Under the pieces are notes generated by a model. It searched no databases. It was not told the DNA's origin and saw only the letters and a program-made list of their open reading frames with translations. From Devosia sp. 1566 (lineage in GTDB: Bacteria; Pseudomonadota; Alphaproteobacteria; Rhizobiales; Devosiaceae): 64,000 nucleotides of DNA. Shown piece after piece: positions 1 to 44,113 of the stretch. The stretch is taken from the NCBI RefSeq assembly GCF_004005995.1, contig NZ_CP034767.1, forward strand, positions 1,674,001-1,738,000, given 5' to 3'. The position numbers and the translations under genes were made by a program. Each line of letters begins with the position of its first letter. The stretch's first letter is position 1.

Positions 1-237
1 CAGCAGCGCATAGCGATTGCCCGAGCCGCGGCCAACCACCCCAAGGTCATCCTTGCCGATGAGCCAACGGGCAATCTCGATCCGGACACCAGCGATCTGG
101 TGTTCGAAGCGTTGCGCTCCCTGATCCGCAACGAAGGCGCCGCGGCCTTGATCGCCACCCACAATCATGACCTTGCTCGCAGGGCCGACCGCATTGTCAC
201 CCTGCGTGGCGGTCTGGTCGTCGAACACGCGCTTTAG
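1..237 (+). CDS. lolD: Lipoprotein-releasing system ATP-binding protein LolD (C-terminal part)
   Basis: This is the last 78 codons of an ABC transporter ATPase; the start lies before the window. The visible part opens with QQRIAIARA, the tail of the ABC signature region, followed by Walker [13 protein letters not shown] and the switch histidine in IATHNHD. The EPTGNLD form is typical of the LolD/MacB/FtsE branch. LolD powers release of lipoproteins from the inner membrane with LolC/E. Position just before dnaE on the same strand is the usual place of lolCD in Hyphomicrobiales, which is the main reason for choosing LolD over a generic MacB-type ATPase. I infer the partner lolC lies upstream. 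Confidence 0.8.
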
Positions 238-460: not shown

Positions 461-490
461 CTCGACAAGAACAAAACGAGAACATACAAG
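461..490 (+). promoter_or_regulatory. Candidate SOS-controlled promoter for the 32-aa ORF
   Basis: CTCGAC at 461-466 resembles the alphaproteobacterial -35 CTTGAC, and TACAAG at 485-490 is a fair -10 at 18-nt spacing. The LexA-type box at 469-483 sits in the spacer, where bound LexA would block RNA polymerase. A start site near 497 would leave a very short leader ahead of the ribosome site GGAG at 504-507. The promoter call is by eye; the box is the stronger part. Confidence 0.4.
469..483. promoter_or_regulatory. LexA (SOS) box
   Basis: GAACAAAACGAGAAC is an exact GAAC-N7-GAAC site, the reverse complement of the alphaproteobacterial LexA motif GTTC-N7-GTTC. Its A-rich centre resembles the box next to lexA in this same window (28441-28455). 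It ends 32 nt before the ATG at 516. About one or two such 8-base matches are expected by chance in 64 kb, so the location and the centre sequence carry the weight. Confidence 0.6.
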
Positions 491-515
491 GAGAGCATTC
501 AACGGAGACACCGAC

Positions 516-614
516 ATGATCACCTTCATCAAGGATTTGGCCGCGTTCGTCACCCTCGGCGCCTTCACCATTGGCTCGCTCACCTGGATGGATATCGTCA
601 GCCGACTCGTGTGA
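516..614 (+). CDS. Small hydrophobic protein, 32 aa, candidate SOS-induced SidA-like division inhibitor
   Basis: A short ORF with a good ribosome site (GGAG at 504-507, eight bases before the ATG). The peptide begins MITFIKDLAAFVTLG and ends SLTWMDIVSRLV: a short N-terminus with one lysine, one hydrophobic helix at about residues 8-24, and a polar C-terminal tail. This is the build of a single-pass inner-membrane micropeptide. A LexA-type box lies just upstream and dnaE starts 79 nt downstream. In Caulobacter a LexA-controlled 29-aa inner-membrane peptide, SidA, blocks division by acting on the late divisome (FtsW/FtsN). Size, topology and SOS control match, so a SidA-like role is a reasonable inference, but I cannot confirm homology. 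It could also be an unrelated micropeptide. Confidence 0.55.
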   Translation: MITFIKDLAAFVTLGAFTIGSLTWMDIVSRLV

Positions 615-693: not shown

Positions 694-4149
<3,456 letters not shown>

Positions 4150-27295: not shown

Positions 27296-27706
27296 TTAGG
27301 CGTGGCGAGCGATGTGGGCGAGGGCCCGCTGGAACATGGGGTGCCATTCGGGGCCCGGTTGGCGCTCGAGTGGCCACCAGAAGAACTCGAACCTATGACC
27401 ACCATCATCCTGGGTAAAGTGACGCCAGTGTTCGGGGACGGGAGCGGCGGCACTCACCACAACGAAGTGCCAAAGCTGTTGCTCTGCAATGGCACTGCTG
27501 GATGGCAGCGTGCGCAAAGCCTCTGCCTGCAGGCCAGACTCCTCCGCGAGTTCGCGCAGGGCACCGACTTCAATCGGCTCGGAGCCTTCCCGTGTTCCTT
27601 TCACCAGCTGCAAGCCAGCCAAAGGATGCCTGAACGCCAAGCAGTGGCGCTCTTGCCCCACCCCGCGCAGCAGGACAGGACAGAGTTTTTCGACCCTGGG
27701 CGTCAA
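27296..27706 (-). CDS. Nudix hydrolase coupled to lexA
   Basis: 136 aa. A complete Nudix box runs from G37 to L59: G37-x5-E43-x7-R51-E52-L-A-E55-E56-S-G58-L. These residues bind the metal and hydrolyse a nucleoside diphosphate linked to some other group; the substrate cannot be told from sequence. The start is TTG inside a TTGA overlap with the lexA stop, so it should be translated with lexA and follow SOS control. A role in cleaning damaged nucleotides (MutT-like) would fit but is inference. Confidence 0.8.
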
Positions 27707-28416
27707 TATTTACGCAGCAGGCCCACCAGGCGGCCCTGAACCTTGACGCGGTCGGGCGGGAAGATGCGGGTTTCGTAGGCGGGATTGGCCGCTTCAAGCG
27801 CGATGGTGTTGCCCTTACGGCGCAGCCGCTTGAGGGTGGCTTCCTCGTCATCCACCAGCGCGACGATGATCTCGCCGGTCCCGGCAACGTCCTGGCGGCG
27901 GATCAGCACCGTGTCGCCATCGAAAATGCCGGCATCGATCATCGAATCGCCGCGCACTTCGAGCGCGTAGTGCTCGCCAGGGCCAAGCATTTCGGGTGGC
28001 ACCGAGATGGTGTGGGAATGGCTCTGGATGGCCTCGATGGGGGTACCGGCGGCGATCCGGCCCATGACCGGGACCGCGACGGGGCGCACATAATCATCGC
28101 TCCAGCCCGAGCGTGGCGGCGGAGCGGCAACACGGCCCAGATTGCCTTCGATGACGCTGGGCTCGAAGCGGGCCTTGCGGCCGCCGAGCGCGGGGTTCAT
28201 CGAATCGGGGAGTTTGAGCACTTCCAGTGCCCGCGCGCGATTGGGCAGGCGGCGGATGAAGCCGCGCTCCTCAAGCGCCGTGATCAGGCGGTGAATGCCC
28301 GACTTGGAGGCCAGATCCAACGCGTCCTTCATCTCGTCAAACGAAGGGGGAATGCCGCTTTCCTTCATCCGCTCATGGATGAACATCAGCAGTTCATGTT
28401 GCTTGCGCGTCAGCAT
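27703..28416 (-). CDS. lexA: SOS response repressor and autoprotease LexA
   Basis: 237 aa, the alphaproteobacterial length. The winged-helix N-terminus [17 protein letters not shown] binds DNA. The cleavage site is Ala123-Gly124 ([12 protein letters not shown]), with catalytic Ser158 ([10 protein letters not shown]) and Lys196 (ATLKRLRRK). RecA filaments trigger self-cleavage. GAAGGG precedes the ATG. Two GTTC-N7-GTTC boxes lie 24-64 nt upstream, so it is autoregulated. The downstream Nudix gene overlaps its stop codon. Confidence 0.97.
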
Positions 28417-28440: not shown

Positions 28441-28455
28441 GAACAAAGACTGAAC
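28441..28455 (-). promoter_or_regulatory. LexA box 1 upstream of lexA
   Basis: On the minus strand this reads GTTCAGTCTTTGTTC, an exact GTTC-N7-GTTC site. It ends 24 nt before the lexA ATG, a place suited to autorepression. Confidence 0.85.
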
Positions 28456-28465
28456 GAGCATAGGT

Positions 28466-28480
28466 GTTCCAGTTATGTTC
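28466..28480 (+). promoter_or_regulatory. LexA box 2 upstream of lexA, opposite orientation
   Basis: GTTCCAGTTATGTTC on the plus strand is a second exact GTTC-N7-GTTC site, 25 nt centre to centre from box 1 and inverted to it. The upstream neighbour moeA ends at 28525 on the same strand as lexA, so both boxes probably serve lexA. Confidence 0.75.
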
Positions 28481-41892: not shown

Positions 41893-43212
<1,320 letters not shown>

Positions 43213-43224
43213 TCGCCACAATGA

Positions 43225-43246
43225 TGAACGGATCCTGAACGGGTCC
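43225..43246. repeat. Tandem 11-nt repeat with LexA-like spacing
   Basis: TGAACGGATCC is followed directly by TGAACGGGTCC. The first part gives GAACGGATCCTGAAC (43226-43240), an exact GAAC-N7-GAAC site, 81 nt before the SDR gene. The centre is GC-rich, unlike the other boxes here, so it may be a chance match. Confidence 0.35.
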
Positions 43247-43321: not shown

Positions 43322-44113
43322 ATGGCCGAATTCGACAAACTCGCCGTTGTGACCGGTGCCTCTTCAGGCATCGGTTTTGAACTGGCCAAGCACTGCGCCG
43401 AGCAGGGCTATAATCTCGTGATCGCCGCCGACGGATCCGACATCGACGACGCCGCCGAAACGCTGCGCCAGTTCGGTGGCAGCGTCGAGGCGGTGCAGGC
43501 CGATCTTTCCACCTATGAAGGCGTCGATGAGCTCTATGCCGCTGTGGCTGCGCTCGGGCGACCTGTTGATGTGCTGATGGCCAATGCCGGCCGGGGGCTC
43601 GGCAAGGCATTCCTTGACCAGGACTTCGCCGACATCCAGCAGGTGATCGACGTCAATGTCATCGGCACGACCTATCTGCTGCACAAGTTCGTGCGCGACA
43701 TGCGCGACCGCAATGCGGGGAAAGTGCTGATCACCGGCTCGATCGGGGGTTTGCTGCCCGGCAGCTTCCAGGCGGTGTACAACGCGACCAAGGCCTATGT
43801 GGATTCATTCGCCTATGCGCTGCGCAACGAGCTCAAGGACACCGATGTCACGATCACCCTCCTGATGCCGGGGCCCACCGACACCAACTTCTTTGAAGTG
43901 GCCGACATGCTGGACACCAAGGTCGCCACCGACAAGAAGGACGATCCGGCAATGGTGGCCAAGGCTGGCTATGACGCGATGATGCGCGGCGACGGGCATG
44001 AAGTGTCGGGCTTTGCCAACAAGATGCAGGCGCTGATGAGCAATGTGCTGCCCCAGGGTGCGCTGGCTGAACGGCACCGGCAGATGGCCGAGCCGGGCAC
44101 GGGCAAGCAGTAG
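43322..44113 (+). CDS. Short-chain dehydrogenase/reductase
   Basis: 263 aa Rossmann-fold oxidoreductase. VVTGASSGIGFELAKH binds the cofactor, NAGRG and the catalytic Ser plus YNATK (GSIGGLLPGSFQAVYNATKA) form the active site. D at the end of the second strand (AADGSD) hints at NAD rather than NADP, weakly. Substrate unknown. It stands alone: eno is 109 nt upstream and a repeat cluster follows. Confidence 0.9.
   Translation: MAEFDKLAVVTGASSGIGFELAKHCAEQGYNLVIAADGSDIDDAAETLRQFGGSVEAVQADLSTYEGVDELYAAVAALGRPVDVLMANAGRGLGKAFLDQDFADIQQVIDVNVIGTTYLLHKFVRDMRDRNAGKVLITGSIGGLLPGSFQAVYNATKAYVDSFAYALRNELKDTDVTITLLMPGPTDTNFFEVADMLDTKVATDKKDDPAMVAKAGYDAMMRGDGHEVSGFANKMQALMSNVLPQGALAERHRQMAEPGTGKQ

Follow-up and report, generated by a model that had tools for sequence, protein, structure and literature searches.

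A putative LexA-controlled, SidA-like membrane peptide encoded upstream of dnaE in Devosia sp. 1566

The region between an ABC-transporter gene and dnaE

The window analysed here is the whole stretch of 64,000 nucleotides from Devosia sp. 1566. It begins within a gene for an ABC-transporter ATPase, which we take to be LolD-like and of which only the C-terminal end is contained. This fragment is followed by a short open reading frame with its own promoter elements and by dnaE, which encodes the alpha subunit of DNA polymerase III (Table 1). The reading frame starts with the ATG at position 516, ends with the stop at position 614 and comprises 32 codons, and a gap of 79 nt separates it from the ATG of dnaE (694). 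In 24 of the 30 Devosia loci L001-L030, the sequence TGTGGAT, which resembles part of a DnaA box, is found 54 nt downstream of the peptide stop and ahead of dnaE; at this place, the window has only TTGTGGGCAA. A second, weaker dnaE homologue (G000:C1:3691447-3694503, TIGR00594, 482 bits) is encoded in the same genome and is presumably dnaE2.

Table 1. Coordinates of the features at the start of the window and around lexA.
Feature	Position	Strand	Evidence
C-terminal end of ABC-transporter ATPase, upstream neighbour	1..237	+	PF00005, E 5.7e-5, 24.2 bits (cut-off 25)
-35 element TCGACA	462..467	+	sequence; TNGAC next to the box in 30/30 genus loci
LexA box GAACAAAACGAGAAC	469..483	+	inside the spacer, between -35 and -10
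-10 element TACAAG	485..490	+	sequence; 17-nt spacer after -35
Ribosome binding site GGAG	504..507	+	sequence; 8 nt before the ATG
SidA-like 32-aa single-helix membrane peptide (predicted) MITFIKDLAAFVTLGAFTIGSLTWMDIVSRLV	516..614	+	ORF, conservation, profile searches, structure model
dnaE, DNA polymerase III alpha subunit	694..4149	+	TIGR00594, 1172.7 bits; Pfam
lexA, expected repressor	27703..28416	-	PF01726 and PF00717
Pair of LexA boxes ahead of lexA	28441-28455 and 28466-28480		GAACN7GAAC search of the window

The original prediction was that the 32 codons encode a single helix. The reading frame can be read directly from the DNA, and a single-sequence AlphaFold2 model of the peptide consists of one helix spanning residues 2 to 31 (pLDDT 96.8). 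The peptide most likely inserts into the inner membrane as one helix. The conservation in close relatives that the prediction called for was found throughout the genus: the peptide is encoded in all 36 other genomes of the genus (E<=1.5e-9), and in the 30 of 37 genus loci that were fetched and read, its length is exactly 32 amino acids without exception, with dnaE being recognised just downstream in 28 of them. Among these loci, the first, second and third codon positions are variable in 14, 4 and 29 of 32 columns, respectively, and the mean dN of 0.099 and the mean dS of 0.742 (425 of the 435 pairs of the 30 loci) correspond to a ratio of around 0.13. Both the codon-position pattern and this ratio indicate that the amino acid sequence is under purifying selection. 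Pfam and NCBIfam gave no passing match for the window peptide. A database search retrieved 834 proteins at E<=0.01, with Devosia crocina and D. lucknowensis among the close matches; the best 120 of these 834 carry, where a name is given (some of them partial), only the designation hypothetical or uncharacterized protein.

The promoter was predicted to harbour an exact GAAC-N7-GAAC box between the -35 and -10 elements, with a GGAG ribosome binding site further downstream, and all of these features are present in the window and retained in the genus. An exact box is located within 60 nt upstream of the reading frame in 24 of the 30 genus loci; its position ranges from -47 to -50 in 23 of them and is -29 in L023. 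The remaining six loci preserve seven of the eight bases. In all 30 loci, the -35 motif TNGAC is accompanied by a spacer of 16 to 18 nt and by a -10 element of the form TA(T/C/A)AAG (TATAAG in 21, TACAAG in 5 and TAAAAG in 4 loci), and GGAG lies within 20 nt of the ATG. A further GAAC about 6 nt after the box, overlying the -10 element, was detected with a loose pattern in 26 of the 30 Devosia loci L001-L030; it is absent in the window.

GAACN7GAAC occurs six times in the window, compared to a mean of 1.47 in shuffled sequences. Two of the six boxes are situated immediately ahead of the lexA gene in the window, which identifies GAACN7GAAC as the type of box used by the LexA of this organism. 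The box ahead of the peptide is of the same type as those at lexA, as expected for a member of the SOS regulon, and we assume that it represents the direct-repeat type known for alphaproteobacterial LexA. Judged by these sequence features, LexA would bind to the promoter, which would be induced by DNA damage. Since shuffling leads one to expect about 1.5 such boxes per window, it could be argued that a chance reading frame happens to lie behind a chance box; this is contradicted by the joint conservation of the reading frame, its length, its start, the box and the spacing, and the probability of such a coincidence is practically negligible. Another exact GAACN7GAAC is found at 43226-43240, between a reading frame ending at 43212 and one starting at 43322, which we take to be enolase-like and short-chain-dehydrogenase-like, respectively. 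From the position of this box, SOS control of the short-chain-dehydrogenase-like reading frame is possible.

Distribution of the peptide and its position relative to dnaE

The peptide was suspected to lie hidden in related genomes as well, and this was borne out beyond the genus. An alignment of 13 genus peptides was used to search other genera. Relatives were found in other genera of the family, and weak matches were obtained in two more families; these copies, too, sit between the end of an ABC-transporter-like gene and dnaE, behind a perfect box. The start of dnaE could be located in 147 of 150 genomes of the order Hyphomicrobiales and in 137 of 144 genomes of the class. From the order, 80 of the 147 regions upstream of dnaE were read, mostly one per genus and picked by hand; from the class, 60 of the 137 regions were read, picked for larger genomes. 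In the order, 42 of the 80 regions contain an exact box on the same strand within 700 nt before dnaE. Within 450 nt, a same-strand box is present in 38/80 regions, compared to a mean of 0.7 in 50 shuffles (maximum 3), and a box in the opposite orientation in 5/80. A mechanical filter that combined the box, a ribosome binding site and a small hydrophobic reading frame was passed by 39 of the 80 loci; some of the loci that passed, e.g., L062, do not resemble the family.

Profile A2 was built from 38 rows of the order only; the rows of A2 and of the later profiles A4 and A5 were picked by eye from motif-bearing loci. Among the 38 rows, conserved positions are F17 (38/38), an acidic residue at position 7 (D or E in 38/38, D in 34), A10 (35) and W24 (32). 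With a threshold of E<=0.05 per genome, A2 detected relatives in 159 of 297 order genomes, representing 68 of 122 genera. Chance alone would account for about 15 matches at this threshold, and as many as 38 of the searched genomes had themselves supplied rows. All 13 sampled genomes of the window's family were matched.

In the class, the boxes alone give a weak signal, with 9/60 regions having a same-strand box compared to 6/60 in the opposite orientation and 0.46 in shuffles. Likewise, 44 of 241 genomes matched at E<=0.3 in the class search, which is no more than expected by chance; its best matches lie before dnaE and have boxes. Only matches that adjoin dnaE and have a box were used from this search. 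Examples are L285, L288, L290 and L305, which belong to other orders and carry the peptide beside dnaE together with boxes; L287 and L304 have boxes as well, and the sequence pieces read for them contain no dnaE. Matches away from dnaE (L300, L309 and L311) were dropped as chance.

In 71 order genomes, the place of dnaE had been located and the place of the A2 match was among the matches listed. There, 63 of the 71 copies precede dnaE on the same strand at a distance of no more than 1000 nt, and two others precede it by 1.6 and 2.5 kb. This arrangement and the short same-strand distance to dnaE in the window would also suit a leader of dnaE, i.e., a reading frame that acts in cis behind a LexA promoter making dnaE damage-inducible, while the peptide itself is little used. 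Selection at the amino acid level, however, speaks against such a leader, and so does the role of the counterpart in Caulobacter, which inhibits cell division (excerpts of PMC4211646). Furthermore, copies INDEPENDENCE from dnaE exist in three genomes of one genus: L318 is located 0.71 Mb off in a one-contig genome, and L319 and L320 are found on other contigs of draft genomes. All three keep the peptide behind two overlapping perfect boxes and a third near-match, 11 nt apart. Including L318-L320, 20 copies were read which are second copies, away from dnaE or unplaced, with dnaE not being located in some of the genomes, and 14 of these 20 show an exact box no more than 100 nt ahead of the reading frame. 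The LexA box thus tends to accompany the peptide even without dnaE, and we consider it very unlikely that the reading frame is a mere leader. Co-induction of dnaE by read-through could exist alongside the production of the peptide.

Some of the 20 copies differ in their upstream regions. In L323, boxes were found only at -235 and -256, and none was found upstream of L325. L314-L317, which are second copies from one genus (g73), have no exact box within 300 nt upstream; these box-less second copies may have left SOS control.

Relationship to SidA of Caulobacter

The closest known counterpart is SidA of Caulobacter, which is described in excerpts of PMC4211646 as a 29-aa inner-membrane protein that is produced during the SOS response and interacts with FtsW; its proposed effect is to hold the FtsW/FtsI/FtsN complex in an inactive state. 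FtsW and FtsN had both been named as targets of SidA in the original prediction. According to the same excerpts, this is correct for FtsW, whereas FtsN is the target of a separate inhibitor of Caulobacter, DidA, a protein of 71 amino acids which is SOS-independent, controlled by DriD and binds FtsN. In excerpts of the respective papers, sidA is listed as CCNA_02004 (PMC10769358), CCNA_02005 as a nucleoside hydrolase gene (PMC3667746) and Caulobacter dnaE as CC1926 (PMC1839093).

For the comparison of the sidA locus, which was part of the original prediction, 15 of 80 named loci of the Caulobacteraceae were used, 14 of which gave dnaE. A peptide of 29 or 30 amino acids is encoded just before dnaE in 12 of the 14 loci, and an exact LexA box is present in 10 of the 14. 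For L283 and L284, the filter for start and ribosome binding site yielded no 29-30-aa peptide, yet profile A4 matches there. The 29-aa peptide directly before dnaE in Caulobacter is SidA itself, as it scores 72.4 bits with NCBIfam NF033228 (cut-off 35). The locus tags are consistent with this: opposite dnaE, the peptide of L274 is flanked by a gene of the nucleoside hydrolase type (PF01156, 1.4e-78), although in L275 (Caulobacter), the upstream neighbour differs again.

A gapless alignment from Met1 places R6 E7 x L9 A10 L11 x S13 V14 xx F17 of SidA opposite K6 D7 x A9 A10 F11 x T13 L14 xx F17 of the window peptide; thus, both share (K/R)(D/E)xxA(F/L)x(S/T)(V/L)xxF at residues 6-17. When the order profile A2 was aligned with SidA using hhalign, a P-value of 8.9e-5 and a probability of 60% were obtained. 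These values improved to 8.5e-7 and 92% with A4, to which intermediates from the class had been added, and amounted to 3.2e-6 and 88% with A5, which lacks the most SidA-like intermediate L160; the P-values apply to a single pair and are not corrected for a database. None of the class intermediates in A4 and A5 comes from the named Caulobacteraceae. In genome-wide searches with either profile, sidA ranked first in 12 of the 14 Caulobacteraceae genomes, which are close kin, so that the 12 top ranks are not independent, and its E-values were modest (0.0017-0.053 with A4, 0.0068-0.152 with A5). Neither profile found sidA in G480. In G481, A4 gave sidA a rank below the first (E 0.66), and A5 did not list it.

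Direct comparisons gave weaker results. A2 detected sidA in only two of the 14 Caulobacteraceae genomes and without significance, as the sole match in G474 (E 0.67) and ranking second among four matches in G475 (E 0.88). In the reverse direction, the narrow SidA profile A3 did not list the window peptide at E<=3 in a search of 101 order genomes, so that the link between sidA and the window depends on intermediate sequences. With a threshold of E<=1, NF033228 did not match the window peptide, which thus stays below the curated cut-off; among 39 sampled family rows, only L160 (E 3.5e-4) and L103 (E 0.067) match this family, both under the cut-off. In a test with 3000 shuffles per peptide against the order profile, shuffles scored as well as the original sequence 0, 14, 0, 3 and 1 times for five variants of SidA and 31, 34 and 9 times for L146, L160 and L182, respectively. 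As shuffles do not copy the make-up of a helix, we relied on the genome-wide ranks instead. L174 was equalled by 826 of 3000 shuffles and was dropped as a family member.

Taken together, the likeness to SidA in size, topology and control that had been predicted is upheld by the same place, the LexA box, the gapless alignment and the top rank of sidA in 12 of 14 genomes, and common descent could be traced, through intermediates only. As the NF033228 cut-off is not reached and the narrow SidA profile misses the window peptide, the sequence comparisons identify it as a remote homologue and positional counterpart of SidA rather than a member of the curated family.

Both peptides are encoded directly before dnaE behind a LexA box, with control being deduced from sequence for the window, and both are around 30 amino acids in length with one helix from near the N-terminus (predicted in the window). 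They differ in their exact lengths (29 compared to 32 amino acids), in the gene upstream (a nucleoside hydrolase gene at sidA, an ABC transporter gene at the window) and in the second half of the helix and the C-terminal tail, where the window peptide has W24, D26 and R30. The aromatic stretch FVWMMC of SidA is absent from the window peptide, so that a contact other than that of SidA is possible.

A candidate checkpoint of cell division

We propose, with a probability of roughly 0.8, that the reading frame corresponds, at this locus, to sidA of Caulobacter and encodes a damage-induced peptide that stalls the late divisome at FtsW. In the absence of damage, LexA would occupy the box within the promoter and block transcription. 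Self-cleavage of LexA upon DNA damage would allow the promoter to fire, and the resulting 32-aa peptide would insert into the inner membrane with its single helix. As proposed for SidA, the peptide might hold the late divisome (FtsW/FtsI/FtsN) inactive by a helix-helix contact with FtsW; septal wall synthesis would then stall at FtsW, and the cells would filament until repair is completed. The contact with FtsW and the division arrest are suggested by analogy, and the window peptide probably works like SidA.

Small SOS-controlled membrane peptides can also have other functions. TisB and DinQ are SOS membrane peptides of E. coli. Like the window peptide by prediction, they are SOS-controlled single-helix peptides, and their size is similar; in contrast to the role proposed here, they act on the membrane and are controlled by antisense RNA, a comparison made by description. 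The window peptide might accordingly be a TisB- or DinQ-like depolariser or an envelope-stress factor that does not inhibit the divisome, since its size and single helix also fit the DinQ type of the SOS peptide class, as outlined in excerpts of PMC3567139. The homology and the common place with SidA, however, make such a function unlikely and favour a division inhibitor.

Other known inhibitors share parts of the proposed mode of action. DidA, like the window peptide by inference, is a small, single-helix, damage-induced division inhibitor, which differs in its length, its control and its FtsN binding. YneA, SosA and ChiZ from other phyla are small membrane proteins under SOS control with FtsW as the proposed target, as stated in excerpts of a 2026 paper (PMC13396833). 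Unlike the window peptide, YneA and ChiZ are described there with a LysM domain and SosA with an extended helix, a comparison that is made by description. The same excerpts argue that FtsW is a possible common target of SOS inhibitors and place SidA on helix 7 of FtsW in a model of low confidence.

The papers retrieved give no account of how division is stopped in most alphaproteobacteria as part of the SOS response. It appears likely that SidA is not peculiar to Caulobacter but represents the most familiar branch of an ancient family of SOS peptides in the Alphaproteobacteria, which was ancestrally encoded before dnaE and would serve as a general, largely unannotated damage checkpoint of septal wall synthesis in the class; later, some members would have moved to places other than that before dnaE, and second copies without a box would have arisen that are perhaps outside SOS control. 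A literature search, with the original SidA paper outside its scope, found no link of SidA to other orders, and as far as the literature and database searches show, the breadth of SidA-like peptides beyond Caulobacter is what is new. With peptides of around 30 amino acids in about half of the sampled order genomes, a directly testable checkpoint candidate is at hand, and the alignment, with D/E7, A10 and F17 as its shared positions, points to residues of SidA that may matter.
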